From positions 91,454 through 155,453 of the forward strand of contig JACPUC010000030.1 of assembly GCA_016192455.1 (NCBI GenBank): a stretch of DNA of 64,000 nucleotides, read 5' to 3'. Source of the stretch: Candidatus Tectimicrobiota bacterium. GTDB lineage: Bacteria; JACPUC01. The notes under the pieces are model-generated. The model made no database searches and was not told the DNA's origin. It saw nothing but the letters and a program-made list of their open reading frames with translations. The position numbers and the translations under genes were made by a program. This document shows, piece after piece, positions 553 to 27,806 of this stretch. Position 1 is the first letter of the stretch. Every line of letters starts with the position of its first letter.

Positions 553-988
553 GCCTCGGGTTCCTCGCGCCTCTGCTTTCCGCCAGCCTCGCCCAGTGTC
601 ATCTGGAACGGCAGCAGGCGGTCTTCTATTCCGCCGCCTCCAGGGGCATCGCCGCTCTCGCCGCGGCGCGTCGGCATCGTGGCGCTATCATACCACGCCG
701 GCGGGTCCGTCGGCAGGCAATTCTCCCCCCGGCGACCGGCCGCGGCCCGCCAGCGATCACCTCGGGCCTCGGGCGCCCATCGCCCACGCATCTTTTGCCG
801 GCGCTTCCTTCCGCGGGATGTTGCCAAGGCTTGCCGGAGGGATGACTCCTCCCGCATGGTTTGCGCCAGCGGGGAAATTGTATACACTTCTGCCCTGTGG
901 AACGCTGGCGGGCGCAGTCGCCGGGCGTGTCGCTGCGCCGCCGTGCCCAAGTCTCTCTTCTCCCCTTCCTCGATGAGGCGTGCCGCGC
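553..988. other. Divergent intergenic region
   Basis: About 436 bases separate the divergent sigma factor and acyl-CoA ligase genes. The frames that are open across it look like GC-rich shadows with no recognisable protein. A TATACA-like hexamer near 890 could belong to a promoter for the ligase, but no convincing -35 box is at the right distance. I see nothing else in it. Confidence 0.4.
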
Positions 989-2590: not shown

Positions 2591-2679
2591 ACGTTGCCTC
2601 CGCAACGGCCAGGCAGAGACCGGTGCGCGGCGATGCGATCAGGAAGAGCGGCAAGGGGGTGGCGCGGGCCGTCGCGGCG

Positions 2680-3012
2680 CTAGTTTCGGCTGACGCTCTC
2701 GTACAGCTTCTGGAAATCGGTCTTCACGTCATCGAGCCAGGTGACGCCGATCCACCTGAAGCGTGGCACGAGGTACTTGCTCGCCTGCGAGGAGAGATCG
2801 AAGAGGAAGTGCTGGTAGACCTGCTCGGCGCTCTGGGCCTGTGTGCGGTACTCCTGCGCCAGCCGCTTCATGACGATCTGGGCGTAGTTGAACATGGCGA
2901 AGCGTTCGTTCTCCTCCTTCTTGTCATACGGGTTCTCGGCATTCATGACCGGAAGGAACACCCGTTCATTGAGGAACTGCAGAAGCTTGTCACGCGCCAT
3001 CGAGTCTGCCAT
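2680..3012 (-). CDS. Hypothetical protein, 110 residues
   Basis: I do not recognise a named family. It is an acidic/basic mixed soluble protein with no signal peptide or membrane segment, containing NERVFLPVMNAENPYDKKEE early and an aromatic C-terminal half (YLVPRFRWIGVTWLDDVKTD). Codon usage and composition look like a real gene: amino-acid usage is balanced, unlike the Arg/Pro/Ala-rich shadow frames here. The start is set by AGGTAGGAAGGG just upstream of ATG 3012 rather than the in-frame ATG at 3039. It lies on the strand opposite its neighbours, between the acyl-CoA ligase and the CoA-transferase subunits. Confidence 0.75.
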   Translation of the reverse strand: MADSMARDKLLQFLNERVFLPVMNAENPYDKKEENERFAMFNYAQIVMKRLAQEYRTQAQSAEQVYQHFLFDLSSQASKYLVPRFRWIGVTWLDDVKTDFQKLYESVSRN

Positions 3013-3383
3013 GCCCTTCCTACCTCTCTGCAATGCCATCGTCTGGGCGCACTCCGCGAGGGTACCCGGCGTGCGCGTGCGCTGCCCCCCTTCCGCGAGC
3101 CATGGTAGATTCTCATCTTAGCAGACCTCTCCCCGCCTGCCAAGACGTGCGGGGAAGGCGGCCGCGCGACAAGGAGTCCTGGGGGAAACCGCGCTTTGAC
3201 TCGAGCGGCGGGGCGGAGGGCTGAAATCCCCTTGCAAACTCACGGAGCTGGCCCGATGCTACGAGGGGAAGAGGCGGTTGGAGGTTATGAGCGCGGACGG
3301 TCCGCGCCACGTGCGCCTGGCTCGCCGGGGACGAGGAGCGGCGGGCAGGGTCGTGGCGCGCTTCTAGCAACGAGGAGACGAGG
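3013..3383. other. Intergenic region upstream of the CoA-transferase genes
   Basis: About 370 bases with no credible gene. A GAGGAGACGAG ribosome binding site at 3372-3382 serves the GTG start at 3384. I see no convincing promoter hexamers. Confidence 0.4.
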
Positions 3384-4262
3384 GTGGGGTATCCGCAGCT
3401 CTGCACGTTGCGCGAGGCGGTGACGGAGGTGCCGCAGGGGGCCTTCATCGTCATGGCGGGGACGAACGACATGGCGCCGATGGCGCTGGTGCGCGAGCTC
3501 GTGCGCCAACGCAAGCGGGGCCTGCGCGTCATCACGGCGCCCACCGGCGGCTTGAACGTTGATCTCCTCATCGGGGCGGGGTGCCTTGCGAGCCTCGAAC
3601 TCTCGGCCGTCTCCCTGGGCGAGTTCGGCGCGGCGCCGCACTTCCGTCGCGCCGCCGAGACGCGGAGCCTCGACCTCAGGGATACGACCTGACCCGCCGT
3701 GCTCGCGGCGCTCCAGGCTGGAGCGCAGGCCCTCCCCTTCGTGCCGGTGCGCGGTCTCCTGGAGAGCGACCTCCTGCGCACGCGCCCCGACTACAAGGTC
3801 GTTGCGAACCCCTTTGACGAGAGCGAACAGATCGTCCTCGTGCCGGCGCTGCGGCCGGAGTTCGCGCTGCTCCACGGCTTCCAGGCCGATGCCCATGGCA
3901 ATGTGCTGCTGCCGGGCGGCCTGGACGGCGTGCTCGCGGCGCAGGCGGCCGAGCGCGTCATCGTGACGGTGGAGGAGCTGGTGGATCACGATCTGTTCGA
4001 GCACCCGCGTCCCGGCGTGGTGCTGCCGGCGCTCTATGTGGAGAGCGTCGTCCTGGCGCCCTCCGGCGCGCGCCCCACGGGCTGTCCGGGATACTACGAG
4101 GTGGATGGCGCGGCGATCCAGGACTACCTGAGAGCGGCGGCTGACCCCACCGCCTTCGCGGCCTACCTGGCGCGCTCCGTGCTCCGCCCCGAAGGCGAGG
4201 AGGGCGGCCGCGAGGACTTCGAGACCGCAGGAGCCGCCGGGGGGAAGCGCGTGGGCAGCTAG
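3384..4262 (+). CDS. CoA-transferase-family alpha subunit (GctA/IpdA-like), predicted selenoprotein with Sec103
   Basis: The frame from GTG 3384 to the stop at 4262 encodes 292 residues interrupted only by one TGA at 3690-3692 (codon 103). Both halves match one continuous class I CoA-transferase alpha subunit: MAGTNDMAPMALVRELVRQ (nucleotide-fold start) before the TGA, and LPFVPVRGLLESD plus FDESEQIVLVPALRPEFALLH after it. No frame shift is needed, and the TGA sits in DTT-U-PAVLAALQAG. A perfect 7-bp hairpin with loop AGGCT follows at 3708-3726, its loop 22 nt after the TGA, as in bacterial SECIS elements. In the IpdA ring-cleaving hydrolases a catalytic Glu lies at about this position (alignment from memory). 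Alternatives are a nonsense mutation or sequencing error. The beta subunit follows at 4549. Confidence 0.8.
3708..3726 (+). promoter_or_regulatory. Candidate bacterial SECIS hairpin in the CoA-transferase alpha gene
   Basis: GCGCTCC (3708-3714) pairs perfectly with GGAGCGC (3720-3726) around a five-base loop AGGCT. The loop starts 22 nt after the TGA at 3690-3692 and has G at position 2. These values fit the published bacterial SECIS model (loop 3-14 nt, G in the first two positions, 16-37 nt spacing). The loop resembles that of E. coli fdhF. Confidence 0.7.
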
Positions 4263-4548
4263 GGCCGTGGCCCGGCGTTTCGGTGCGGCATGGCGGGGCG
4301 TGATTCGGCGGCAGGCATGGTGCGAGGCAACCGTCTCCCACCGCCTGCCGGTGGGTTGCATCCGCTTCGTCGTCGCTCCCCTCAGCGCGGTCGCCTTGAC
4401 CAGTGGCAGAGGCGTAGGCTGGGAGGGCGGGGGATCAAGGCCCCTCAGCCAACGTGAGCCTTCGTGACGCGGCACGGATGCCGCGCGCGCGCCGGAGCCC
4501 AGCAGGCGACGACTCCCTCAGAGGTGCGACGCGGCGGGAGGAGCGTGA
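4263..4548. other. Spacer between CoA-transferase subunits
   Basis: A 286-base spacer, unusually long for a two-subunit enzyme. No ORF with a recognisable product is present. A GGGAGGAG ribosome binding site precedes ATG 4549. Confidence 0.4.
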
Positions 4549-5307
4549 ATGGAGGCGGAAGCGTCCTGGACACAAGCGGAGATGCTGGCCTGCATCATCG
4601 CGCGCGAGCTGCGCGACGGCGAGACCGTCGGCGTGGGAGCCGCCTCTCCCGTGCCCGCCGCGGCAGCCCTGCTGGCCCGGGCCAGCCACGCGCCGACGCT
4701 CTGCCCGCTCATCATCGGCAGCCCCGCCCACTTCCCCTTCCGGGGCGGCAGCAAGGAGTTCTTCGATTTCGCCCAGCGCGGCGGCCTGGACGTCTTCTTC
4801 CTCAGCGGCGCCCAGATCGACCTGCGCGCGAACATCAACCTCCACTGCATCGGGCCGTACGAGGCGCCCAGCGTGCGGCTGCCGGGAGCGCGCGGCTCCG
4901 CCATGCTCTACTACATGGCGCGCCGCACCATCCTCTTCCGCACCGAGCACACGCCGCGGGTGTTCGTGCCGCGCGTTGATTTCATCACCAGCCCCGGCGC
5001 CAGCTCGGCCGGCGTGTTTCGGCGCGGGGGGCCGGACAAGGTCATCACCCCGCTGCTCACCTTCCGCTTCAATCAGCAGGCGGGGGAGCTGGAGCTGGCC
5101 GGCCTGCACCCCGGCGTGAGCCTCGACGCGGCGCGCGCGCAGACCGGATTCCCGCTGCGCTGGCAAGGCGGCGAGGCGCCGCGCGTGGCGCCGCCGACGG
5201 CGGAGGAGCTGGCGGTCCTGCGCGAGCGCGTGCGCGACGAGCTCGCGCCCATCTATCCGCGCTTCGCGGCAGGCCAGATCAAGGCGCCGCACGCGGCGCA
5301 GCCCTGA
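4549..5307 (+). CDS. CoA-transferase-family beta subunit (GctB/IpdB-like)
   Basis: Partner of the alpha subunit at 3384. The 252-residue protein shows the class I CoA-transferase beta fold: CIIARELRDGETVGVGAASP at the start, a central NLHCIGPYEAPSVRLPGARG, and KVITPLLTFRFN followed by the LELAGLHPGVSLD segment typical of GctB/IpdB. I do not see the classical catalytic Glu-x-Gly (EN/SxxG) of true CoA-transferases in the expected place, which would fit a hydrolase of the IpdAB type rather than a CoA transfer reaction; this is inference. RBS GGGAGGAG lies directly upstream. It contains no in-frame TGA. Confidence 0.85.
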   Translation: MEAEASWTQAEMLACIIARELRDGETVGVGAASPVPAAAALLARASHAPTLCPLIIGSPAHFPFRGGSKEFFDFAQRGGLDVFFLSGAQIDLRANINLHCIGPYEAPSVRLPGARGSAMLYYMARRTILFRTEHTPRVFVPRVDFITSPGASSAGVFRRGGPDKVITPLLTFRFNQQAGELELAGLHPGVSLDAARAQTGFPLRWQGGEAPRVAPPTAEELAVLRERVRDELAPIYPRFAAGQIKAPHAAQP

Positions 5308-5480
5308 GTGGCAAGGCCCTCCCCGCCCCTCCAGCCTCGACGGCTGCGGCGGCGCAGCAGCACGTAGTCCCGCCCGCCGATCTCCCTCCATCCTATCTCC
5401 ACGTCTATGGCAAGCCTTCGGCGCCGGTCGTTGGGCGGCGTTCCCCTAGGGTATCGCGAAGCAGGGCGAGGCTATTTTTC

Positions 5481-5509
5481 TTGCAAAACGCCAACGCCGA
5501 CACTATCAT
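5481..5509 (+). promoter_or_regulatory. Sigma-70-type promoter
   Basis: TTGCAA at 5481-5486, a 17-base spacer, then TATCAT at 5504-5509. It would give a leader of about 200 nt ahead of the secreted protein at 5718. The leader holds a 7-bp hairpin (AGCTCCG at 5638-5644 with CGGAGCT at 5654-5660). Confidence 0.55.
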
Positions 5510-5717
5510 TGGGTCCTCTCTGTCAAGGACCTGCGCAGGTGGCTGGGGGCGCAGGGGCAGCGGCTGTGCCGCTCGCGACGAGGCGGAGCGGCGTGGCGGG
5601 CGATGAGGCCGTAGTCCCGCGGAGGCGCCGTGGCATGAGCTCCGGGTAAGCGACGGAGCTGTTCAACAAGCGACAAGGGTGCTGGCGAGTGCCCATCGCA
5701 GGGGAGGCGTAAAGAGG

Positions 5718-7076
5718 ATGAAGAGGTATCGTGGTGCGAATGCAGCGCGTCGGGCCGTTGTGGCGGGGGTTGCCATAGCGGTGCTTCTCCTCAGTGGCTC
5801 CCTGGTCCTGGCGCAGCGTCCCTTTGGTCCGCCTTCGGGGGATCAAGCCGGAGTGCGACCCGAGGTGCCGTCGCCGCCGCCGCCGCCGCCGCCGCCGGGT
5901 GAGCCCAGCAAGCCACCCGTGCCGAGCAGTCTGGCGGATCTGTTGGTGGGATTGCGGCCGAGCGGCGGCGGCGCGCCGCAGGCCGGAACAGGTCCTGATA
6001 TCAATGCCACCTTCTCCGGCCAGGTGCCGGGGTTCATTCCTCTGAACATCGAAGTCAATATCACGGAATCCGAGGGGGCGATCAGCGGCTCGGTGAACGT
6101 GCTCCAGGGTCAAACGCTCTTGACCGAGTTCGGCATGAGCGGGGAGTATGATCGCCAGATGCGCAAGGTGACGTTGAGCATCCAGCTCGATCCGCCGCTG
6201 TCGCTGAGCGGCGAAGTCTCTCCCGATGGGAACATGATCGAGACCGACCTGGGGATCGTGCTCTTTCGCGGCGGTGGACGTGGGAGCCCCGTGGAGGGGC
6301 TGTTCATCGGCTCCCTGGGCGTCTTCCAGGTGCCCCTCCTGGGCGAGATCGATATCAGCCTGAGCGTGGAACTCTTTGAAGCGGAACCTGGGAGTGTGGA
6401 TGGGTTCTTCGACACCCGCGTGGGCGGCGAGTTCCTCGGTTTCGGCGAGGTGCGGGGGAGCGCGGCGCCCGCCGATCAGAGCGGCGCCCGCCATCTCACG
6501 CTCACGTTCTTCTTCCAAGACCGCACCGAGGTGACCGTGGAGGCGGTGCTGCCCTTCGATCAGCGCGTCCTCGAGGTGCCGCAGTTCCAGTTGCTGCTCC
6601 ACCGGGGCCGCTTCCTGGATGGCACGGTGGAGGAGATCGGCGAGGACCAGTTCACCATCTTCAACGAGTTCAGCGAGGAGCGGTTTGTGGTGCGCGTCAG
6701 CCGCAACACCCGCTTCCTCCTCGGCCCCTCTATTCTTGCTACGCACGCTGAGGACGTGGAGGGCGAAGCCCTGGAGGAGGACGCGCTGGATTTCGTCGAC
6801 GAGGGCGTTCTGCGCGGCAAGGCCGGCTTGCAGGCCCTGCGGCAGGGTGAGTTCGCCTTCGTCTTGGCCATCGAAGGGCTGCCCGATGAACCATTGCTGG
6901 CGCTGGAGGTGGAGCAGGGGGGCTTCTTCGATGAGGGCGAACTCGACTTTGAGGAGAACGACGACTCGCTGAGTGATGGGTTCGCCGATGGTGGGTCGCT
7001 CGACTGCGCGCCGGACGATACCGCGTGCCTGGCCGGCCTTGCCGGTGTCGACTCACTATTTGGCAATGGCTCCTGA
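5718..7076 (+). CDS. Secreted proline-rich protein with DUF5666-like segment
   Basis: Function unknown; exported. An N-terminal signal peptide (about residues 1-33, hydrophobic VVAGVAIAVLLLSGSLVLAQ) is followed by a low-complexity proline tract of eight Pro, then beta-rich sequence. A stretch near residue 310 (DGTVEEIGEDQFTIFNEFSE) resembles the DUF5666 repeat that binds or stabilises metals in some secreted proteins. The C-terminal 60 residues are very acidic (DEGELDFEENDD) and end with a CAPDDTACLAG cysteine pair. ATG 5718 is chosen because GGGGAGG and AGAGG precede it; an in-frame start at 5679 would put 13 residues ahead of the signal. It stands alone between a promoter and a strong hairpin terminator. 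Confidence 0.8.
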   Translation: MKRYRGANAARRAVVAGVAIAVLLLSGSLVLAQRPFGPPSGDQAGVRPEVPSPPPPPPPPGEPSKPPVPSSLADLLVGLRPSGGGAPQAGTGPDINATFSGQVPGFIPLNIEVNITESEGAISGSVNVLQGQTLLTEFGMSGEYDRQMRKVTLSIQLDPPLSLSGEVSPDGNMIETDLGIVLFRGGGRGSPVEGLFIGSLGVFQVPLLGEIDISLSVELFEAEPGSVDGFFDTRVGGEFLGFGEVRGSAAPADQSGARHLTLTFFFQDRTEVTVEAVLPFDQRVLEVPQFQLLLHRGRFLDGTVEEIGEDQFTIFNEFSEERFVVRVSRNTRFLLGPSILATHAEDVEGEALEEDALDFVDEGVLRGKAGLQALRQGEFAFVLAIEGLPDEPLLALEVEQGGFFDEGELDFEENDDSLSDGFADGGSLDCAPDDTACLAGLAGVDSLFGNGS

Positions 7077-7121
7077 TTGCGCTTCGTGGCCGCGCCGCAC
7101 GTTCCCGCCCGCAGTAACGAA

Positions 7122-7150
7122 AATGGGGCGCCCGTGGGGGGCGCCCCATT
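7122..7150. terminator. Strong convergent hairpin terminator
   Basis: A perfect 12-bp stem, AATGGGGCGCCC (7122-7133) with GGGCGCCCCATT (7139-7150), with a 5-base loop. It lies between the plus-strand secreted protein and minus-strand thiC. The flanking A and T residues suit use in both directions, although the T-run is short. Confidence 0.75.
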
Positions 7151-7206
7151 GTTGTTGACGCGCCGGCCGCCGGTCGCCGGTCGCCGTGCCGGGGACTCCC
7201 CCCATC

Positions 7207-8746
<1,540 letters not shown>

Positions 8747-8770
8747 GATCGTTCGCTGGTTGGTAGGTGA

Positions 8771-8799
8771 AGTGTAGGCCGCGCGCGCCGCAAAATCAA
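8771..8799 (-). promoter_or_regulatory. thiC promoter
   Basis: On the minus strand TTGATT (8794-8799), a 17-base spacer and TACACT (8771-8776). Transcription would start near 8764, just ahead of the TPP riboswitch. Confidence 0.55.
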
Positions 8800-9171
8800 G
8801 CACGGAGTGCGGCATGCGGGGCCTCGCCGCGATACCCGGCCAGCGGCGCATGCTGAGCGGTCGCACGGCGCCGCCGACGCGCCTCGAGTCTTCGGCGGCA
8901 CGAGACCAGCGAGCGCCGAGGCCCACTGCTTTCTCCCGGCCATCCCCCCAACACTCGCCCCCCAGCCCCGCGCCGATCTCCCATGGCGGGGTGTCCGCCG
9001 TTGCGTTATCTTTAGCAAAACTCGCCGCCAGGACAGGCGGCGAGGTTCCTGGCGCTCCAACCCGACGACCGCAACGGCGAGTCTCTCAAGGCCGGCGCGG
9101 CGGTGGAGGGCTGGCGGTGGCGCGCTGTCCGCGCGCGGCGGAGCCTGCCGCCGGCGGGGAGGGAACGGGGC
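8800..9171. other. Divergent intergenic region
   Basis: About 370 bases between the thiC promoter and the plus-strand cupin gene. Nothing recognisable beyond the ribosome binding site GGGGAGGG near 9157. Confidence 0.35.
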
Positions 9172-10230
9172 ATGAAGACCATGGAAGCGGCCATGGCGAA
9201 GACGCCGCAGGCGTACTTCCAGGAGGTGGCGCGCTACAAGACGGAGCCGCTCTGGATGCGCCTGGCGGAGGTCCTCACGAACGAGCCGCCGGTGCGCGCC
9301 CTCCCCTGCCTCTGGCGGTATGCCGACATTCGCCCGCTGCTCCTCCGCGCCGGCGAGCTCCTGACCGCGGCGGAGGCCGAGCGCCGCGTGCTCATGCTCA
9401 TGAACCCCGGCCTCGAGGGAGAGGTGGCCGCCACGCAGACGCTCTACGCGGGGCTGCAGCTCATCCTTCCCAGCGAGATCGCGCCGACCCATCGCCACTC
9501 CCCGGCGGCCTTCCGCTTCATCGTCGAGGGGGAGGGGGCTTACACCTCCGTGAACGGCGAGCGCCTCATCATGCACCCGGGCGATCTCATCCTGACGCCG
9601 GCCTGGGCCTGGCACGACCACGGCAACGAGACGGACGCCCCCACCGTTTGGCTTGATGGCCTCGACGTGCCCTTGGTGAAGGGGCTGGGCGCTGTCTTTG
9701 CGCAGCCGTATGCCGCCGGCACTCACCCCGTGGCGCGACCCGACAACGCCTCCTTGGGGCTTTACGGCGCCGGCGGCATGCTGCCCCTGGGCGCGGCGCA
9801 CGACGGCCCCCACTCGCCCCTGCCGATCTACCCCTGGAAGCAGGCCAGGACCGCCCTCGAGCAGGCCGGCGCGCCGACCACGCCGCACGACGGCGTCATC
9901 TTCGAGTACGTCAACCCGCTGACCGGCGGCCCGATCTTCCCCACCATGTCGGCCTACGTGCAGATGCTGCGTCCGGGCGAGCAGACGCGCCGCCACCGCC
10001 ACATGTCGAGCCACGTCATGCACGTCGTCAGCGGCAGCGGCGTCAGCATCATCGGCGATGCGCGCCTGGAGTGGCGCGCCAAGGACACCTTCGCCCAACC
10101 CGGCTGGATGTGGCACGAGCACCGGAACCTCTCGGCGAGCGAGCTGGCGTTCCTCTTCTCCTTCTCGGATCGGCCGGTGCTCGAGCGCTGCGGCCTCTAC
10201 CGTGAAGAGGATCGCGGACCGCAGGGATAG
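9172..10230 (+). CDS. Bicupin dioxygenase, gentisate 1,2-dioxygenase-like
   Basis: Probably an Fe(II) ring-cleavage dioxygenase for gentisate or a salicylate-type substrate. The 352-residue protein has two cupin domains. The N-terminal one holds the metal motif PTHRHSPAAFRFIVEGEGAY with the second histidine in WAWHDHGNET; the C-terminal one has TRRHRHMSSHVMHVV and WMWHEHRN. It is related to the minus-strand protein at 19553 but clearly not identical. ATG 9172 follows GGGGAGGGAACGGGGC. The MBL hydrolase gene begins 129 bases downstream on the same strand, so the two may be cotranscribed. Exact substrate is unknown. Confidence 0.85.
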   Translation: MKTMEAAMAKTPQAYFQEVARYKTEPLWMRLAEVLTNEPPVRALPCLWRYADIRPLLLRAGELLTAAEAERRVLMLMNPGLEGEVAATQTLYAGLQLILPSEIAPTHRHSPAAFRFIVEGEGAYTSVNGERLIMHPGDLILTPAWAWHDHGNETDAPTVWLDGLDVPLVKGLGAVFAQPYAAGTHPVARPDNASLGLYGAGGMLPLGAAHDGPHSPLPIYPWKQARTALEQAGAPTTPHDGVIFEYVNPLTGGPIFPTMSAYVQMLRPGEQTRRHRHMSSHVMHVVSGSGVSIIGDARLEWRAKDTFAQPGWMWHEHRNLSASELAFLFSFSDRPVLERCGLYREEDRGPQG

Positions 10231-10359
10231 GCCGCGGGCGGCCGGGGGGCTGCGCCGCCTCACGGCGCTGGGGAGGCCGGGTTGCACGCAGTTCCTGGGC
10301 GAGGGGCTGGCGCGCTTCGCGGCGCGAAGATCCCGAGTATTCTCGGAAAGGATAGGTGC

Positions 10360-11202
10360 ATGGAGCTCTCCCCGGGGGTCTATCACATCGAGGTGCCGTC
10401 CCGCACGCTGCCGCCGGCCAAAGCGACGAACTCGTACCTCATCGGCGCCGTCGAGCTGACGCTCATCGACGTGCCGCGCACCTGGGATACGGCGCACAAC
10501 CCCATCGCCCGGGAGCTCGAGCGGCGAGGCAGCCCGCCGTTGCGGCGCGTCCTCTTCACGCACTCCCACATGGACCATTACGAGGGCGTGGATGACATCC
10601 CGGCCCTGGCGGGCGCCGCGCTCATGGCCCATCCGGTCGAGGGAAGGGTGATCAGCGCCAACCTGAAGACGCAGCGCGTCGAGCACGATCTCCAGGATGG
10701 AGATCGGCTGCGCGCCGACGGCATCACGATCCGCGCCCTCTTCACCCCTGGCCACGCCCCCGGCCACCTTTGCTACTACCTCGAGGAGCCGCGCTTCCTC
10801 ATCTCTGGCGACGTCATCCTGGGCTTCGGCACCTCCGTCATCAGCCCCCCCCAGGGCGACATGAGCGAGTACCTCGCCACCCTCGAGCGCCTCAAGCAGC
10901 TCGACTTGGCGATGATCCTGCCGGCCCACGGACCGATGATCCGCGACCCCTACGCCAAGATCCAGGAGTACATCGAGCACCGCCTCAGGCGCGAGGCGAA
11001 GGTGCTCGACGCGGTCCGCCAGGGGCACGCCACGCCGGAGCGCATCGCCCGGGCGATTTACGGCGAGGAGGATTTCCGCGTGCACGGCTACGACCTGCTG
11101 CCGCGCGCGGCCCGCATGGTCCTTGCCCACCTCCTGAAGCTGGAGCGGGAGGGCCGCATCCACCGCACCGCCGGGGCGCGCGTCGATGCCTTCGCGGCGT
11201 GA
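10360..11202 (+). CDS. MBL-fold metallo-hydrolase (LACTB2-like)
   Basis: Zinc hydrolase of unknown substrate, 280 residues. The metal motif THSHMDH is at residues 67-73 (H68, H70, D72, H73), followed by TPGHAPGH and LISGDVILG, and a C-terminal winged-helix-like region (ERIARAIYGEE) that is characteristic of the LACTB2 and RNase-like MBL subgroup. An AAAGGATAGGTGC ribosome binding region supports ATG 10360 rather than the upstream in-frame start at 10282. It follows the cupin dioxygenase on the same strand and could act on a thioester or lactone product of that pathway (inference). Confidence 0.85.
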   Translation: MELSPGVYHIEVPSRTLPPAKATNSYLIGAVELTLIDVPRTWDTAHNPIARELERRGSPPLRRVLFTHSHMDHYEGVDDIPALAGAALMAHPVEGRVISANLKTQRVEHDLQDGDRLRADGITIRALFTPGHAPGHLCYYLEEPRFLISGDVILGFGTSVISPPQGDMSEYLATLERLKQLDLAMILPAHGPMIRDPYAKIQEYIEHRLRREAKVLDAVRQGHATPERIARAIYGEEDFRVHGYDLLPRAARMVLAHLLKLEREGRIHRTAGARVDAFAA

Positions 11203-11316
11203 GGGAGGGCGACCATGCCGCGGAGGCGCGTCCGGCGCCCACATTTTCAGATTTTCTGCTTGCGCGGCGCCTGGGGATGTGCTAAAGGAGGGTCACGCAA
11301 GAAAGGAGGTGGTCCG

Positions 11317-11358
11317 ATGGCATTACCGTGTAGGACCTGCGAGGTGACTGAGCGGTAG
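11317..11358 (+). CDS. 13-residue leader-type peptide MALPCRTCEVTER
   Basis: ATG 11317 is preceded by AAAGGAGGTGGTCC, which matches the expected 16S anti-Shine-Dalgarno over nearly its whole length, far beyond a normal RBS. The stop TAG at 11356-11358 overlaps the first base of hairpin A, so a terminating ribosome would cover the 5' arm and leave hairpin B free to form. GGTCC before the start can also pair with GGACC at 11333-11337. Two cysteines in CRTC are notable. Existence of translation is inferred. Confidence 0.5.
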   Translation: MALPCRTCEVTER

Positions 11359-11433
11359 CGCTTTGCGCCGCGACTCGGCGAGATTGCAAAGCGCCAGCGC
11401 AACAGCGCTATTGCAATCCAATCAGTTTCACCG

Positions 11434-11501
11434 ACCCTGAAAGCGCCGCGGTAAGGTCCCCGCGGCCGGCTCCGCCGTAAAAGCTTTCAGGGTTCTTTTT
11501 T
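11434..11501 (+). terminator. Branched intrinsic terminator
   Basis: Outer stem ACCCTGAAAGC (11434-11444) with GCTTTCAGGGT (11483-11493), followed by TCTTTTTT. Two hairpins sit inside it: GCCGCGG/CCGCGGC (11445-11451 with 11460-11466) and CGGC/GCCG (11467-11477). The cruciform shape is unusual for a plain terminator. Confidence 0.75.
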
Positions 11502-11671
11502 GCCTGCAGGCTGCGCCGCCAGCGGCGCGACTTTTCCCCGCCTGCTTGCCCACCTTGCTGCACCGTCCTTGCGTGCCAGAAGTGTCCGCCTGCCGAAGCG
11601 AGGCTCGCTGCTCCATGCCCAGCACACCTGCGCCCGGCGCGAGCCGCTGGGAGGATTGGGGGCTGCCCTCC

Positions 11672-12772
11672 TCACGCCAGGCGCGCCGGGTCGAAGGCCG
11701 CGGCGTCCTCGCGCGGCTGACCAAGGAGGAGGTCCGCCGCCAGCCGGCCGACGGCGTAGCTCGTGGTGACGCCGTGCCCGCCCAGCCCGGCAAGCCAGAA
11801 GAAGCCCGGCAGGCGCGGGTCCCAGCCGATGACGAAGCGCCCGTCAGGGGTGAGCGTGCGCAGCCCCGCCCAGATGCGCTGCACCTCGATGCGCGGCAGG
11901 CGGGGGAAATGGGCCGCCAGCTTCTCCCCCAGCAGGTCGAGGACCGCGTGGTTGGTCGGCGGCAGGCAGGCGGCCATCTCGTCCTCATCGCAGGCGCTCA
12001 GCAGCAAGCCGCCCGACTCCGGCCGGAAGTAGACCTCGTGGGCCACGTCCCAGATGAACGGCCAGGAGGGATCGACCTCCCGCATCGGCGGCGTGCATAC
12101 GAGGTGGCGCCGGCAGGGGCGCAGCGGCAGGGCGTCGGCGCCGGCGAGCCGGGCGAGGGGATTCGCCCAGGCCCCCGCGGCATTGACAAGCAGCTCGGCG
12201 CTGATCGGTCCCTGGGTGGTCGTCAGGGCGAAACCCCCGTTGCGCGCCGCGATCGCCTCCACCCGGCAGGAGGTGAGGAGGCTGGCGCCGGCGGCCTGGC
12301 TGGCGCGCACGTAGCCGCTCAGCAGGGCGTGGATGTCAACGACGCCGTCGCTGGGGCACCAGAGACCGGCCTCGCAGTCGCTGCCCTCGAGGAAGGGGTA
12401 GCGGGGGACGAGATCAGGGATCGGCAGGCAGGCTGCTTCCACGTCGTCGCCGCGGGAGGCCAACAGCCTCTCGGCCAGCGCCTGGTCGCAGAGGAGGAGC
12501 GACCCCGTGCGGTTCAGGATCGGCTGCCCCTCGTTGAGCGCCGGGGCGCCCTCGCGGAGGAACCGGGTGCCCTCCCGGGCGAGGCGGGCGAGATGCGGGT
12601 CCGCCACGAGCTGCCGGGCCATGGCCGCGTTGCGTCCCGAGGAGTGCGCGCCGGGGGTCGGCTCGCTCTCGAGGATCACTACGTCCCGCTCCCCCGCCAG
12701 CGTCAGATGGTAGGCGGCGGCAGCCCCGGCAAACCCCGCACCGATGATGGCCACGCGCGCGTGCTGTCTCAC
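11672..12772 (-). CDS. FAD-dependent oxidoreductase (DAO family)
   Basis: Flavin enzyme of the glycine/D-amino-acid oxidase family, oxidising an amine or amino-acid-like substrate. The 366-residue protein begins with the dinucleotide-binding motif VAIIGAGFAGAAAAYHL (GxGxxG), has the SSGRNAAM loop typical of DadA/sarcosine-oxidase-like proteins, and the C-terminal FAD motif GLGGHGVTTSYAVG. GTG 12772 is the best start, with GAGGAGAAGG upstream. It is convergent with the structured RNA at 11290-11501. Substrate is not predictable. Confidence 0.88.
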   Translation of the reverse strand: MRQHARVAIIGAGFAGAAAAYHLTLAGERDVVILESEPTPGAHSSGRNAAMARQLVADPHLARLAREGTRFLREGAPALNEGQPILNRTGSLLLCDQALAERLLASRGDDVEAACLPIPDLVPRYPFLEGSDCEAGLWCPSDGVVDIHALLSGYVRASQAAGASLLTSCRVEAIAARNGGFALTTTQGPISAELLVNAAGAWANPLARLAGADALPLRPCRRHLVCTPPMREVDPSWPFIWDVAHEVYFRPESGGLLLSACDEDEMAACLPPTNHAVLDLLGEKLAAHFPRLPRIEVQRIWAGLRTLTPDGRFVIGWDPRLPGFFWLAGLGGHGVTTSYAVGRLAADLLLGQPREDAAAFDPARLA

Positions 12773-13206
12773 TCGACCTTCTCCTCAGCCTGGGGGGAAC
12801 GCAGCCTGCCTGCCGCGCCGCGTCCGGGTTCTGGGATGCCGCCGGCCGTCGTGCCGCGGTCTCTGGGAGGGACCTGTTCCCGCTTCCATCCAGGGCCGAC
12901 GGGGCTTTCTCCAGCGGCATTCTTTCGATAGTATGCGCAGGTTGCGGTCTGCCTTCCATGGCATGCCGGACGCGGCCGGGCGGTCAACGTCCACCACGCC
13001 GGAGGCGTCGCGTGCCGGGAGGATGCCGGTTCGCTGGGGCGTGGGGGCGTCAACCGTAGGCTGGCCTTCGGGGAAGCGGGTGCCGGGGGGAAGGAAGCGC
13101 GGCGAAACGCCACGGCGCCGCGCCCCGACTGTCGTGTCGTCCTGCCGCCAAGGAACCTGGCGGAGACGGCGAAGGTGCGCCGTGGAACGCCGCTGGAGAG
13201 TCCGTC
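12773..13206. other. Divergent intergenic region
   Basis: About 430 bases between the FAD oxidoreductase and the PNPOx-like gene. Open frames here look like shadows. No promoter or structured element stood out. Confidence 0.35.
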
Positions 13207-13641
13207 ATGGCCGATGCGGGCCTGCGAGAGAAAATCTATGCGGTCACCGATGCCAACTACCTTGCGGTGGTGGCCACGGTGGATGAGCGCGGCGAGTCGC
13301 CGAAGCTGCGCATCATGGCGCCGGCGCGCGAGGGGGACGTCTTTTGGTTCAACAGCACCCACGCCGCGGGCGGCAAGCTGCGGCAGGTGGCGCGGCGTCC
13401 CGCTGCGGAGCTCTTCTTCACCCCCGACGGCTATCGCCGCTGCGTGCTGGCGGCGGGGGAGATGGTTCTCGTCACCGACGGCGACGAGAAGCGCCGCGTC
13501 TTCCCGCTCTTTCTGAAGGGCCAGCAGCGCCTCATCGGCAGCCCCGAGGCGCCGAACTTCAATCTCCTGAAATTCACGACGCGCCGCTACACCTACCTCG
13601 ATCACGATGCCTCGGAGTTCCACTCCCTGAACGTGGCATGA
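13207..13641 (+). CDS. Pyridoxamine 5'-phosphate oxidase-family flavin/F420 protein
   Basis: Small 144-residue split-barrel protein: LREKIYAVTDANYLAVVATV is the classic first strand of general-stress-protein-26-like PNPOx proteins, followed by GDVFWFNSTHAAGGKLRQV and the AELFFTPDGYRRCVLAAG strand. Such proteins bind FMN, heme or F420 and usually reduce small substrates. F420 use is conceivable because two LLM-class proteins are encoded in the window, but cofactor cannot be assigned. It stands alone, convergent with the nitrilase gene. Confidence 0.8.
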   Translation: MADAGLREKIYAVTDANYLAVVATVDERGESPKLRIMAPAREGDVFWFNSTHAAGGKLRQVARRPAAELFFTPDGYRRCVLAAGEMVLVTDGDEKRRVFPLFLKGQQRLIGSPEAPNFNLLKFTTRRYTYLDHDASEFHSLNVA

Positions 13642-13734
13642 TGGCGCGGCTGGAATGTCCACCGGCGCACCGGCCCGGCCCTGCGAAGCCGCGCCGGTGT
13701 GGGCCGCGCGGGGCCGGTGGCTCTATGCTCAACG

Positions 13735-14778
13735 TTACTCCCGTTTGTAGGGCCGCGTGTAGACGCCCTTGTCGTAGAGCTTTTCGAGGATGGAGCGGAA
13801 GAGGGCGCGGGTCTGGTCGATGCTCTCGATCGGCTGCTCGAGGAAGCCATCGAGGGGCCAGCCGATCGCCTCGGCGTACTCGCGCGCAAACAGCTCGGCG
13901 CGGATCGAGGCCGGGTAGAAGGGCCTCGAGCGCGCGGCGCGCAGGGCGTTCACGTCGACGAGGGCGCGGATGCTCGCTTCGCCCGGGCCGCCCGTCTTCG
14001 CCAGCACCTGCCCTTCGTGGTTGATGATCATGCTGCCGCCGTGGGAGCAGTCGACGCCGCGCTTGGCGCCCTCGAAGACGCCGATGTTGCAGGTGGCGAA
14101 GATCGCCTTGTTCTCGATGGCGCGGGTGATCTTGATGGGACCCCAGTCGGCGTAGTCGAGCGACTCCGAGGTGCAGTGGAAGATGATCTCGGCGCCGTTC
14201 AGCATGGTGCAGCGCGCGTTCTCGGGGTAGAGCAGCTCGCCGCAAGTGATCACCCCGACGCGCCCGTGCGGCGTCTCGAGGACGGGGAAGAGCGCCTGCC
14301 GGCCGTAACGCTCGACGAACTCGGAGTAGATGTCCGACGGCGTGGTGTAGGGGAGGAGCCAGGAGTTGTTGTTGATCTTCCAGTGCTTCAGCACCACCTC
14401 GCCGGTGGGGCTGATGATGAAGGAGGTGTTGAAAAAGCGCCCCGGCCAGTCGTCGTGCACCTCGGCCATGTTGGCGACGATGTAGACCCCCAGCTCCTTC
14501 GCCTTCTGGCCCATGAGGTCGGTAACGGGGCCGGGGATCGGCACGGCGATCTTCATCCAGTCCTTCACTGGCATCTCTTTCCAGGCGCCGTTGATGCCGT
14601 ACTCCGGCATGACGATGAAGCGCACGTCGCTGCGGCCGAAGGAGGCGACGTAGTCCATGAGATCGAAGGCGCGCTCCAGGTTGGCGTGGATGTGCTTGTC
14701 GCGCTCCCTGCGGTTCGTCGAGGCCTGGTGAGCCACGCTCTGCAGACAGGCGATGCCGAAGGGCTCAACGTAGTCCAT
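13735..14778 (-). CDS. Nitrilase/amidase-superfamily hydrolase
   Basis: Carbon-nitrogen hydrolase, 347 residues. The catalytic triad is visible: Glu59 in IVMPEYG, Lys134 in LKHWKIN, and Cys179 in GVITCGELLYPE. Long insertions and the C-terminal half resemble aliphatic amidase or formamidase relatives rather than nitrilases proper. AAAGGAAA precedes ATG 14778. It is the last gene of a four-gene minus-strand set ABC ATPase, permease, binding protein, hydrolase, with 61 bases to the binding protein, which suggests it processes the imported nitrogen compound. Confidence 0.88.
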   Translation of the reverse strand: MDYVEPFGIACLQSVAHQASTNRRERDKHIHANLERAFDLMDYVASFGRSDVRFIVMPEYGINGAWKEMPVKDWMKIAVPIPGPVTDLMGQKAKELGVYIVANMAEVHDDWPGRFFNTSFIISPTGEVVLKHWKINNNSWLLPYTTPSDIYSEFVERYGRQALFPVLETPHGRVGVITCGELLYPENARCTMLNGAEIIFHCTSESLDYADWGPIKITRAIENKAIFATCNIGVFEGAKRGVDCSHGGSMIINHEGQVLAKTGGPGEASIRALVDVNALRAARSRPFYPASIRAELFAREYAEAIGWPLDGFLEQPIESIDQTRALFRSILEKLYDKGVYTRPYKRE

Positions 14779-25024: not shown

Positions 25025-25612
25025 CTACTTCACCTCCGCGAGCAATTTCCTGAACAGCTTCAGCGACTCCTCGCCGTCCCACTGGCGGGGGCCGATGCCC
25101 ATGCCGACGAGGTCGCCGCGGTGGTCGATGATGAAGGTGGTGGGGGTGCCCCGCACCATGTAGAGAATCTGCGCCGCCCCCTCCGGGTCGAGGAGGATTG
25201 GGAAGGGGATGGCGTGCTTCTTTACGAAGGGGGCCACCGCCGACTTCCCCTCGCGGTCGATGGCAACGCCCACCAGCACGAACTTGTCGTTCTTCAGGAG
25301 CTCCGACAGCTTGATGAGAGAGGCACGCTCTCGCGCGCAGTAGGGTCACCAGGTGGCCCAGAAGTTGAGGAGCATCACCTTGCCCTTGAAGTCGCTCAGC
25401 TTCACCGTCTTGTCGTCGAGGTTCGGCAGCGCCACGTCCGGCGCCTGGATGCCGGGCGGCGCCGGGTGCAGACCGAGCGCGCCCAGCTCCTCCTTGTAGG
25501 GGTTCTCCGGAGTCGGCGGGGTCTCGGCGACCGCGCGCCGGCCAAGCAGGGCGAACGCGAGCAGCACGGCACACGCTACCAGAATGACGTTACGCCGCTG
25601 CACTGATGCCAT
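25025..25612 (-). CDS. TlpA-like thioredoxin-fold protein, predicted selenoprotein with Sec89
   Basis: Periplasmic thiol/selenol oxidoreductase, 195 residues. N-terminal membrane anchor or signal at about 8-29; AhpC/TSA-redoxin core with APDVALPNLDDKTVKLSDFKG, then NFWATW-U-PYC, where TGA at 25346-25348 replaces the first active-site cysteine (Sec89, Cys92). After the TGA the fold continues with LVGVAIDREGK, the cis-Pro region GTPTTFIIDHRG and a normal end. Conventional calling splits it into two fragments (25346-25699 and 25025-25279). RBS AAGGAG precedes ATG 25612. A SECIS-like hairpin follows the TGA at 25316-25332. Last gene of the MerT-like operon. Confidence 0.88.
25316..25332 (-). promoter_or_regulatory. 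Candidate SECIS hairpin, TlpA-like gene
   Basis: GAGAG pairs with CTCTC around loop CGTGCCT. The loop begins 18 nt after the TGA at 25346-25348 and has G in position 2. The stem is only 5 bp, the shortest of the set. Confidence 0.5.
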
Positions 25613-25863
25613 GAGATGCTCCTTCAACCCCGTTTCGTTCCAACCCGCCCATACAGGCCCTCGACATCGACTTGCGGCGTGGCGACGCGCGCCGCGCAAG
25701 CTTGATTCCTACCGGGCAACGCGGTCAGGCGCTGAGGTATTCCCCCACCGCCGGGGCCCCGCCGCGGCAGGGGCCCGCCTCCACCTGGATGCCGCAGCGC
25801 GGCGGGCGCGTCTGCCTTCAGGATGAGCCGGCGGGGTCCGGGGCGGCGCGGTCGCCACGCGGC

Positions 25864-26457
25864 TCAATGCAGGGATTTCGGCCCCACGCGGATCACCGTC
25901 ATCATGAGGTCGTCCTCGCCGATGCTCTTGATGGTGTGCCGCCAGTTCGTGGGGACGGTGAACCAGGAACCGGCCGGAACGGCTTTCACGACCTCCCCCT
26001 TGGCATCCATCAAAAGCCCCAGGCCCTGCTCGATGTAGCAAATCTCCGTGGTGCTCATGATCCCCACATTTCCCCCGTTGGGGATGCGCGCCTTGCGGAC
26101 GGAGAACCAGACGTCATTGCCGAAGTCGACCTTGGCGATGAGCTTCGCAAAGAACTTCTCTCCCATGCCGGTCGGCTGAAAGGGGAGGGCTTCATCGGGA
26201 AGCACGACCTGCTTCTCGAAGCTGCTGATGAGGAGGTCGGGGTCGGGCACCTTGCCCATCTCCATCGTAGGCATTGGTGGTGTGCGCATCGGTTGCCCGG
26301 CGTCGGGTTGCATGCTCTGCATCGGCTGCTGCATCGGCATGGACGAGGGCGCGCCCGGTTGTCTGCGCGGCATGCTCGGCATTCCCTGCGCCAAGACGCC
26401 CGCGGAGCCGAGCCACACCACGAGCATTCCCACCACACTCGCGAGAACCCCCCTCAT
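25864..26457 (-). CDS. Secreted Met-rich cupin-domain protein
   Basis: 197 residues with a signal peptide (about 1-24, ending AGVLAQG). Residues 26-67 hold ten methionines among Pro/Gln (MPSMPRR, MPMQQPMQSMQ, PPMPTMEMG), a composition seen in periplasmic Cu(I)/Ag(I)-binding segments. The rest is a cupin: WFSVRKARIPNGGNVG, TTEICYIEQGLGLLMD, PAGSWFTVPTNWRHTIKS. The histidine set is sparse, so it may bind rather than catalyse. GGAGGGGAG precedes ATG 26457. It lies between the MerP-like and TlpA-like genes in the Sec-rich operon, which points to a metal-related role (inference). Confidence 0.82.
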   Translation of the reverse strand: MRGVLASVVGMLVVWLGSAGVLAQGMPSMPRRQPGAPSSMPMQQPMQSMQPDAGQPMRTPPMPTMEMGKVPDPDLLISSFEKQVVLPDEALPFQPTGMGEKFFAKLIAKVDFGNDVWFSVRKARIPNGGNVGIMSTTEICYIEQGLGLLMDAKGEVVKAVPAGSWFTVPTNWRHTIKSIGEDDLMMTVIRVGPKSLH

Positions 26458-26508
26458 GGTCTCCCCTCCTACTGGAGCCACGGGCCGCCGCCGGCCGCGT
26501 CGCCTCGG

Positions 26509-26829
26509 TTACTCTCCGGCGGGTTTCTCCGCGGCCCCTCCGGGATCGCTGGACAGAACGCCGGCCCGGAACCCCACGGACCTGAGGGCGGCGATCATCT
26601 GCGCCGCGCCGACGCGGGCTGGGTCGAATGCCACCTCGGCCTTCGCCTCGCGCAAGCTCACCTGCGCCTTCTCAACTCCGTCGAGCCTCTCCAAGGCTCG
26701 TTGAGCGATGATCACTCACGTCCCTCACGTCAGCCCCTCGACGCGCAGGCTCAGGTTCTCCGCCAGCGCGGCGGCGCTGCCGAGACCGAGGATGCTGGCC
26801 GCCAAGAGCAGCGTGACCCAGGTGCGCAT
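26509..26829 (-). CDS. MerP-like periplasmic heavy-metal-binding protein, predicted selenoprotein with U35-G-T-U38
   Basis: 106-residue secreted HMA-domain protein. Signal peptide about 1-23 (VTLLLAASILGLGSAAALA), then the beta-1 strand NLSLRVEGLT. The metal loop of the family, GMTCxxC, reads LT-U-GT-U: TGA at 26725-26727 and 26716-26718 replace both metal-ligating cysteines. The fold then continues perfectly (ALERLDGVEKAQVSLREAKA, EVAFDPARVGAAQMIAALRSVGF). Without recoding only residues after the second TGA are called (26509-26715). A 6-7 bp hairpin at 26682-26700 can act as SECIS for both codons. RBS GGGAGGAG; two bases separate it from the zinc-ribbon gene. Confidence 0.88.
26682..26700 (-). 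promoter_or_regulatory. Candidate SECIS hairpin, MerP-like gene
   Basis: CGAGCC pairs with GGCTCG, extended by a T-A pair, around loop TGGAG. The loop starts 22 nt after the second TGA and 31 nt after the first, both inside the accepted 16-37 nt range, with G in position 2. Confidence 0.65.
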
Positions 26830-26831
26830 GC

Positions 26832-27116
26832 TCACTCCTCCCTCTCCAGGGCGAAGACGCCGTAGGCATGCAGCAGGCGAAACGTCTCGCCGCAGTGCTC
26901 GAGGCGGTCGCCCGCGGCGGCCTCATCCGGCAGGGTGAGCATGGTCCCGCACGCCGGACAGCTCGCGCGCTTGACGATCATGAGGCCGTACCGACCGTGT
27001 CGCTCCGAAACTCGGAACAGGAGCCCGGCTCAGTTGGCGCACTCGAAGCCCTCGCCCGGGCGCGCCCGCGGCCCAAGCTCGACCTCTTGCCCTCAGCCAG
27101 GACAGAGCGCCTTCAT
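26832..27116 (-). CDS. Double zinc-ribbon (LysW-like) protein, predicted selenoprotein with Sec8 and Sec29
   Basis: 94 residues; missed entirely by ordinary ORF finding. From ATG 27116 (RBS GGGAGGCGGC) the frame reads MKALCPG-U-GQEVELGP, GEGFECAN-U-AGLLFRVSE, then a second ribbon-like half VKRASCPACGTMLTLPDEAA and LEHCGETFRLL, ending at TGA 26832-26834. The first half matches a LysW-type ribbon (CPxCG...GExxECxxC) in which the second and fourth ligands are TGA (27093-27095 and 27030-27032). The second half keeps ordinary cysteines, an internal control showing the frame is coding. Each TGA has its own downstream hairpin. Probably a small metal carrier; function inferred from neighbours. Confidence 0.8.
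27002..27018 (-). promoter_or_regulatory. Candidate SECIS hairpin for Sec29 of the zinc-ribbon protein
   Basis: GTTCCGA pairs with TCGGAGC (7 bp with one G-T pair) around loop GTT. The loop begins 18 nt after the TGA at 27030-27032, G first. Confidence 0.6.
27058..27074 (-). promoter_or_regulatory. Candidate SECIS hairpin for Sec8 of the zinc-ribbon protein
   Basis: GGGC pairs with GCCC, then after one bulged C an inner GC/GC pair closes the loop GGGC. The loop begins 25 nt after the TGA at 27093-27095, G first. A bulged upper stem is also seen in known bacterial SECIS. Confidence 0.5.
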
Positions 27117-27147
27117 GCCGCCTCCCGATCAGGTGGGTACGTTGAAG

Positions 27148-27381
27148 CTACAGGTGCAGGAGCTGCTTCAGCCGCCCCAGGTCGAAGCCCACGACCACCT
27201 CGTCGTCCACTGTGATCACCGGCACGGCAAGCCGACCCGTCTTCGCCTTCAGCTCGGCGATGGCGCCTTGGTCCGCTTCGACGTTCCGCTCCACGAAGGC
27301 GATCTGGTTCTGTGAAAGGAACTCTTTCACCTGTTTGCAGGGCCTTCACGTAGGGCTGGTAAAGACCATGACGTTGGGCAT
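27148..27381 (-). CDS. Glutaredoxin-like protein, predicted selenoprotein with Sec12
   Basis: 77-residue cytoplasmic glutaredoxin/NrdH-type protein: MPNVMVFTSPT-U-RPCKQVKEFL, LAVPVITVDDEVVVGFDLGRL (cis-Pro TVP-like segment and Gly-Phe-Asp end). TGA at 27346-27348 occupies the nucleophilic first cysteine of CxxC (Sec12, Cys15). Standard calling starts at an internal GTG (27330) and loses the active site. RBS AGGGAGGGAG precedes ATG 27381. It lies 41 bases after the MerT-like gene and 31 bases before the zinc-ribbon gene. SECIS-like hairpin at 27312-27330. Confidence 0.9.
27312..27330 (-). promoter_or_regulatory. Candidate SECIS hairpin, glutaredoxin gene
   Basis: GTGAAAG pairs perfectly with CTTTCAC around loop AGTTC. 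The loop starts 22 nt after the TGA, G in position 2, the same spacing as in the CoA-transferase gene. Confidence 0.7.
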
Positions 27382-27422
27382 CGTTCTCCCTCCCTATGAA
27401 TTACGGCTGGCGAGGCAGATCC

Positions 27423-27806
27423 TCAGTTCATCGCGCCTTGCAGCAGCGCGGCGGTTGCGTCCGGGAAGAGATCGAGCGCCAGCGCCGCCAGCAGCGCCAG
27501 GGTGGCGCCCAGCAGCATAACGAGGTTGAGGCGCGCCCCGATGAAGCGGCATGCCACCGCGCGGCAGCGTCGGCGCTCCCTGAAGTATAACGCATACGAG
27601 CCAAGAACTCCGAACACGCCGGCTGGCAGGAAGATGGAACGGTACTGCATCGTCGTGCCCATGAACGCCCCTGTCCCAAGCCCCGTGAGCACGACGAGAA
27701 GCGGCAGGACGCAGCAGAGCGAGGCGACGAAGGCCGCCCCTAGGCTCACCGCGCCCACTCCGAAAGCGCGCAGGCACTCTCGACCGGCATGCAGGGATAC
27801 TCTCAT
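27423..27806 (-). CDS. MerT-like membrane transport protein
   Basis: 127 residues with three hydrophobic segments. The first contains the vicinal pair Cys31-Cys32 in FVASLCCVLPLLVVLTGLG, the hallmark of MerT, which takes Hg(II) from MerP across the membrane. A second cysteine pair, Cys81 and Cys86 (RCRAVAC), lies in the cytoplasmic loop, as in MerT. All cysteines here are ordinary TGC/TGT codons. First gene of the operon with glutaredoxin, zinc ribbon, MerP-like, cupin and TlpA-like proteins. No merR or merA is present, so the metal may not be mercury. Confidence 0.82.
   Translation of the reverse strand: MRVSLHAGRECLRAFGVGAVSLGAAFVASLCCVLPLLVVLTGLGTGAFMGTTMQYRSIFLPAGVFGVLGSYALYFRERRRCRAVACRFIGARLNLVMLLGATLALLAALALDLFPDATAALLQGAMN

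Follow-up and report, generated by a model that had tools for sequence, protein, structure and literature searches.

In the genome of a Candidatus Tectimicrobiota bacterium, an operon of six genes lies on the minus strand at positions 25025-27806 of a 64,000-nucleotide stretch of DNA (the window, which means the whole stretch analysed). In our best explanation, which we consider rather probable, predicted selenoproteins of this operon capture Hg(II) (or another soft metal) with selenols outside the inner membrane, and the metal is imported and then held or relayed in the cytosol. To grip mercury, the cell would probably rely on selenium in place of sulphur. With U standing for predicted selenocysteine (Sec), the genes are, from 5' to 3':

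27423..27806, minus strand: MerT-like membrane protein of 127 amino acids, with a vicinal CC and a second C-x4-C pair; no internal TGA; stop codon TGA
27148..27381, minus strand: glutaredoxin (Grx) with active site T-U-R-P-C; PF00462 at 64.2 bits, over the cut-off
26832..27116, minus strand: double zinc ribbon (ZnR), CPGU...CANU...CPAC...HC; stop codon TGA
26509..26829, minus strand: MerP-like HMA protein with metal motif U-G-T-U and, by eye, an N-terminal signal-like stretch; NF041115 and PF00403
25864..26457, minus strand: Met-rich protein with a C-terminal cupin barrel, secreted-looking by eye; stop codon TGA
25025..25612, minus strand: TlpA/ResA-like thiol-disulfide oxidoreductase with W-U-P-Y-C; AhpC-TSA PF00578 at 96.5 bits, over the cut-off

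A preceding sequence-only reading had described these six genes as tightly spaced. This holds for gaps of 2-51 nt, except ahead of tlpA, where the gap is 251 nt and tlpA is therefore possibly a separate unit. The MerP-like protein scored 108.5 bits against NF041115, the UxxU metal-binding (seleno)protein family (cut-off 95), and has the UxxU motif. It also exceeded the Pfam cut-off of the HMA domain PF00403, with UxxU in place of CxxC, and stayed below that of TIGR02052 (50.1 versus 92.55 bits). MerT was below both of its models (NF010314, 26.5 bits with a cut-off of 150; PF02411, 17 bits with a cut-off of 32.9); by sequence its first membrane helix contains the vicinal Cys pair of canonical mer systems (SLCCVLPLL), and a C-x4-C pair is present as well. 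Grx scored 55 bits against the Uxx-star glutaredoxin-like family NF041212, under the cut-off of 66.

Six in-frame TGA codons lie inside four of the six genes (Grx, ZnR, MerP and TlpA), each at a Cys position of its protein family, and are predicted to be read as Sec:

27346..27348, minus strand: Sec codon (TGA) of Grx, predicted from sequence
27093..27095, minus strand: predicted Sec codon 1 of ZnR, residue 8; Cys column in relatives and TGA in other genomes
27030..27032, minus strand: predicted Sec codon 2 of ZnR, residue 29; Cys column in relatives and TGA in other genomes
26725..26727, minus strand: predicted Sec codon 1 of MerP, in-frame TGA of U-G-T-U
26716..26718, minus strand: predicted Sec codon 2 of MerP, in-frame TGA of U-G-T-U
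25346..25348, minus strand: predicted Sec codon of TlpA, in-frame TGA of W-U-P-Y-C

If six TGA codons were placed at random on the 472 codons, the chance that all would fall on the 13 motif columns (counted by hand) is about 1e-10. The genes for MerT, ZnR and the cupin terminate with TGA, so the genetic code is unchanged and TGA still serves as stop; a change of code was rejected for this reason. The genome itself (4.46 Mb in 31 contigs, 88% complete) encodes for SelA, SelB and SelD and contains tRNA-Sec (75.5 bits), each over its family cut-off, and its SelD has one TGA inside the match. Cys-type relatives were found for MerP (loci L062 and L063) and for TlpA (L065), and relatives of ZnR have Cys or TGA at these sites. 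The Grx relatives retrieved all have U at the active site, at a position which we take to be that of the family's Cys. The sequence-only reading had called the four proteins predicted selenoproteins with TGA at functional Cys positions. This is supported by the Sec machinery, by homologues with Cys, by the recurrence of the TGA sites in further genomes and by the hairpins described below.

Candidate selenocysteine insertion sequence (SECIS) elements were located downstream of the codons:

27312..27330, minus strand: SECIS-like hairpin of Grx, 7-bp perfect stem, loop AGTTC
27047..27085, minus strand: candidate SECIS of ZnR codon 1, imperfect G+C-rich hairpin, -20.5 kcal/mol
27001..27019, minus strand: SECIS-like hairpin of ZnR codon 2, 8-bp stem, loop GTT
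26682..26700, minus strand: SECIS-like hairpin of MerP, 8-bp stem, loop GGA
25318..25332, minus strand: SECIS-like hairpin of TlpA, 5-bp stem, loop CGTGC

A loose test, which asks for a G-loop hairpin at legal spacing downstream of the codon, was passed by all six sites, yet also by 73% of 150 control codons, and is therefore of little use in this G+C-rich DNA. A strict test (perfect stem of at least 4 bp, loop of 3-8 nt with G in its first two positions, loop start 16-30 nt downstream) was applied to 15 stretches with 47 predicted Sec codons, of which 28 reached a score of at least 6; among 462 control codons, 35 did so (p 9e-11). The 47 include a codon of L068 (context DSGGUFYKT) that is perhaps not a Sec site, and close relatives are among the sites as among the loci counted below, so that p-values and fractions overstate independence. 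The claim that a SECIS-like hairpin follows each TGA stands for Grx, ZnR codon 2, MerP codon 2 and TlpA (5 bp). Taken on their own, the hairpins of ZnR codon 1 (5 bp, score 4) and MerP codon 1 (4 bp, score 3.5) are weak by the strict test. MerP codon 1 lies only 9 nt upstream of codon 2, so the two can share one hairpin and probably do. The Grx hairpin was present in all 11 Grx sequences examined, with compensatory changes. Its pairing was kept in 92% of cells (as high in 2 of 500 shuffles), eight cells were altered on both sides (reached by none of 500 shuffles) and its covariation score was matched once in 500 shuffles. Sliding the partner lowered every figure, although the choice of columns by consensus favours the unslid frame.

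The most constant part of the system is the pair of Grx and ZnR. A search of the protein database with the single ZnR sequence gave no relatives; a five-row profile gave 105, some of them named from Tectimicrobiota, Acidobacteriota and Nitrospinota. Cys occupies residue 8 in 91 and residue 29 in 102 of these, the remainder being gaps. Called open reading frames in databases cannot show U, so these counts are evidence for Cys columns only. In DNA, ZnR matches were found in 12 of 386 diverse genomes and in 14 of 18 genomes of one phylum; a search of plasmids with the ZnR of L061 gave no match. After removal of five weak or partial rows (G020, G166, G332 and G057, below 24 bits; G387, a partial match of 28 residues), the set comprised 21 distinct loci from 20 genomes. 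A Grx with Sec adjoins ZnR in all 21. TGA occurs inside the ZnR gene in 12 loci, solely at residue 8 and/or 29: seven have it at both sites, three only at residue 8 and two only at residue 29, and the other nine have Cys at both. In L115 and L119 the second TGA is the end of the gene and was not counted as an internal site.

The predicted structure of ZnR (mean predicted local distance difference test score, pLDDT, 91.7) consists entirely of strands, as expected of two ribbons. Its best solved match was the LysW chain 3vpb_E (Foldseek probability 1.00, E 8e-3), to which residues 52-95 also matched by profile (E 3e-5). The first half is LysW-like by eye, and a further LysW match, PF21344, was found in 36 of 42 ZnR members. 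The LysW and ArgW carriers end in an EDWGE motif with a modified Glu. ZnR shares with them the LysW-like half, residues 52-95, and differs in having two ribbons and Sec and in ending in ALEREE instead of EDWGE; it scored 48.2 bits against NF041070 (cut-off 75) and was not assigned to these carriers.

The gene neighbourhoods of relatives link the operon to mercury. Searches within the order and phylum of the window matched only its own genome, and a scan of contigs with MerP as the only query led to two loci that have HMA domains and, by BLAST, lack the cassette. The core of MerT, UxxC Grx, ZnR and UxxU MerP recurs in genomes of other families. Its order MerT-Grx-ZnR-MerP is identical in the window and L058, and the same four genes are reordered in L059, L060 and L061. 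L058 further contains MerR-like and MerE-like genes and a MerA-like gene in two reading frames that ends in SCCAG; L061 has MerR-like and MerE genes, and L059 has MerF, a MerR-like gene and ArsR. Two genomes of a single genus, in which ZnR had no match, contribute L065 and L087; in both loci Grx(U), MerT, MerP(U), MerE, a Cys-type TlpA and a MerA over its cut-off stand together. Three family cut-offs were exceeded: that of NCBIfam for MerF by the L059 protein, that of Pfam for MerE by those of L061 and L065, and that for MerA by the one of L087. MerA lies beside cassette relatives in three genomes, two of one genus and the third with a split gene.

At least one of MerR, MerT, MerP, MerE, MerF and MerA was found near ZnR in 14 of the 21 loci, which span five genome families (f1, f32, f73, f95 and f138), and MerT, MerE, MerF or MerA in 13. 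In these counts MerR means any MerR-family protein found by BLAST. MerA matches at 24-29% identity were excluded (identity cut 33%) and taken as thioredoxin reductases, because two of them (L061 and L108) read so by eye. Since the mer queries came from L059, L061, L065, L087 and L110 and match themselves there, family-model results were used for those loci. None of nine distinct control stretches contained MerR, MerT, MerP, MerE or MerF, which is a modest control, since seven of these were taken from the window's own genome. Ten stretches had been run, two of which are the same DNA (L022a is window positions 1-14000). Five (L088, L089, L090, L091 and L094) were originally chosen for MerA-family matches, and MerA was left out of the control figure because three of these five gave MerA.

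The regulators point in the same direction. Nine of ten aligned MerR-like neighbours keep three Cys in the C-terminal half, and those of the L110 regulator, the one compared, line up with the three Cys of the Hg-MerR structures 4UA1 and 5CRL. That regulator scored 100 and 92 bits against 4UA1/5CRL, 76 against CadR and 74 against CueR. Within the window itself, the clues to mercury are MerT and MerP only; the metal is narrowed to mercury because cassette relatives adjoin three-Cys MerR-like regulators, MerE, MerF, MerT, MerP and in places MerA.

Several unusual genes were observed at these loci. L059 (2748-2906) and L060 (6555-6722) each encode a further small MerT-like protein, in which two neighbouring TGA codons in frame (PNI-U-U-ILPL) occupy the position of the MerT Cys pair. 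This is a possible vicinal Sec-Sec pair, for which the strict hairpin test gave at best a 4-bp stem. L061 contains MerP-like domains at 4981-5199 and 5537-5749 with U-P-F-T-U, in which three residues instead of two separate the U's. At L084 (1542-2940, genome G363) a MerA-like gene is split over two reading frames, either a broken gene or an assembly error.

A number of results weigh against mercury capture by selenols. Firstly, in seven of the 21 ZnR loci the 8.5-14.5 kb read contain no gene of mer type. Secondly, the family models set limits. MerA in the own genome reached at best 374.5 bits (cut-off 454.45), with none in the operon, and MerR at best 39.4 bits (cut-off 150.85). MerR was over its cut-off in none of eight genomes tested and MerA in only two (G097 and G365, of one genus), both without a ZnR match. 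The MerR relatives, of which three were run against family models, were below the TIGR02051 cut-off where tested, with a zinc regulator as best model for L059, and MerE was below its NCBIfam cut-off. Thirdly, the Met-rich cupin has copper-like contexts elsewhere: in L021 it comes with a CsoR-type regulator, and in L020 with a heavy-metal ATPase that exceeds the cut-off of the Cu subfamily. Lastly, nine of the 47 predicted Sec sites had no hairpin by the strict test, and two of five Grx covariation measures were unremarkable, double-change pairs (62 of 500 shuffles) and further pair types (494 of 500).

Because MerA and MerR miss their cut-offs in a genome that is 88% complete, reduction is unproven and copper has to be considered. 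Membership in the canonical mer operons was rejected on the same two proteins, and the operon looks built like the uptake half of such an operon. The sequence-only reading had proposed uptake, carriage and reduction of a soft metal or of selenium/tellurium species: uptake and carriage are retained and narrowed to mercury by the mer neighbours, and reduction stays conjectural, as no MerA exceeds the cut-off. Elsewhere in the own genome (L080:1627; G000:C22:15159-16484) a FAD-dependent disulfide oxidoreductase contains CVNSG-U-TPTK, in which Sec may replace the second Cys of the active site; a hairpin of 8 bp follows downstream.

A role of the operon in handling a soft metal other than mercury, such as copper or silver, with MerT and MerP only the nearest named families, seems unlikely. 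In its favour, the MerP-like protein scores equally well against CopZ models and against the MerP model. The cupin is Met-rich; its predicted barrel is close to metal cupins such as TM1459, with low confidence for the Met-rich part, and it has 33 relatives in the protein database. Copper stays in consideration because the cupin elsewhere adjoins the Cu-subfamily ATPase (L020) and the CsoR-type regulator: in L021 (1560-3758) a cupin homologue stands between this regulator, a DsbD/ArsG-like membrane protein and an HMA protein with U. It would also fit that neither MerA nor MerR exceeds its cut-off in the window's genome. This explanation has to contend with the MerE, MerF, three-Cys MerR-like regulators and MerA that accompany the cassette in other genomes, and with the two Cys pairs of MerT.

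Grx and ZnR could instead be a thiol/selenol redox pair, in oxidative-stress defence or as a redox-switched zinc ribbon, with incidental neighbours. We regard this as rather improbable. The pair is the sole part found in all 21 loci, a third of which lack mer-type genes, and a gene that reads by eye as a thioredoxin reductase lies near Grx-ZnR in L061 (1484-2452) and L108 (556-1752), with low-identity matches recurring in that family; it may be an electron source or simple synteny. Mer-type genes in the other 14 loci, across five genome families, argue against incidental neighbours. The same Mer-type partners make a system for uptake and storage of selenium or tellurium very doubtful, although no search aimed at Se/Te genes was made; the richness in Sec and general soft-element chemistry would speak for it. 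Finally, it is hardly credible that the TGA codons are real stops in decayed genes or sequencing errors: TGA does serve as stop within the operon and the sites are known from assembled sequence alone, but all six fall on Cys columns, the ZnR positions are TGA in other genomes too, the hairpins covary and the genome has the full Sec machinery.

For capture of Hg(II) by selenols, the gene content, TGA positions, Sec machinery, hairpins and conserved neighbours lead us to infer the following flow. MerP would bind Hg(II) between the two selenols of UxxU in the periplasm, and MerT would carry it across the inner membrane via its Cys pairs. In the cytosol, ZnR (CxxU...CxxU) and Grx (UxxC) would receive Hg(II) and either pass it to a flavoprotein reductase or keep it. 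In classical systems, handing Hg(II) to the reductase is the job of the N-terminal domain of MerA. TlpA (UxxC) could re-reduce oxidized periplasmic selenols and the Met-rich cupin could buffer metal in the periplasm. We propose more tentatively, as a possibility held with less than even confidence, that Grx(UxxC) and ZnR together make up a so far undescribed selenol relay of two proteins, which seizes cytosolic Hg(II) and is able to work without MerA; ZnR would then be a new selenoprotein family in which a mixed Cys/Sec zinc-ribbon site has turned into a mercury grip, within a selenium-based branch of mer. In Synechocystis, a MerA-like enzyme is reported, citing others, to need glutaredoxin for Hg(II) reduction (PMC8261052), a precedent for Grx in such a relay.

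The operon shares features with several known systems. With the mer operons it has in common a MerT-like and a MerP-like protein in one operon, and its cassette relatives lie near MerR-like genes, MerE, MerF and sometimes MerA. It differs by Sec at the metal site of MerP, the extra Grx, double zinc ribbon, cupin and TlpA, and the absence of MerA and MerR, neither of which exceeds its cut-off in the own genome. FmdB is also a zinc ribbon, and its selenoprotein forms resemble ZnR in having Sec in CxxU or UxxU. ZnR was unmatched by any FmdB model in NCBIfam or Pfam and consists of two LysW-like ribbons with a Grx partner. The CxxU form of FmdB was described from Global Ocean Sampling data (PMC2398784) and the UxxU form in a 2026 review (PMC13188914). 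A survey of mer operons, 272 according to its table, uses no word beginning with 'glutaredoxin' or 'selen' in its main text (PMC3466566). The review lists NF041115, to which our MerP belongs by score, as a two-Sec family, and in the portions available this listing gives no operon partners. It also covers the multi-selenoprotein operons SAO (Sec-assisted organometallic) and Tso of Haft and colleagues (PMC13188914). These likewise have several Sec proteins per operon; the six proteins described here gave no SAO or Tso model over cut-off; TsoB matched TlpA weakly (20.8 bits).

The sequence-only reading knew of no described system with this combination. This needs to be narrowed, as Sec-containing MerP, MerT, UxxU metal-binding and Grx proteins have been published (PMC13188914, PMC2398784, PMC9312934). 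The LysW-like double ribbon and its Grx pairing are what is left: within the portions of PMC13188914, PMC2398784, PMC9312934, PMC3466566, PMC8261052 and PMC12013277 available, and with the original SAO/Tso papers not compared, we found no description of a LysW-like ribbon as selenoprotein, of a fixed pairing with Grx or of the whole combination.

Elsewhere in the window, a TPP (thiamine pyrophosphate) riboswitch is located at 8645-8756, and positions 11295-11500 match the Rfam family Ms_IGR-5, which is described as actinobacterial.

The operon adds a LysW-like zinc ribbon to the known places of Sec use, and a Grx adjoining ZnR provides a genomic marker for finding such systems. Mercury toxicity is largely the capture of selenols and thiols, and a deliberate use of selenols against mercury would make this chemistry directly testable. 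Since natural ribbons have either Cys or Sec at residues 8 and 29, affinity, transfer and tolerance could be compared atom by atom.

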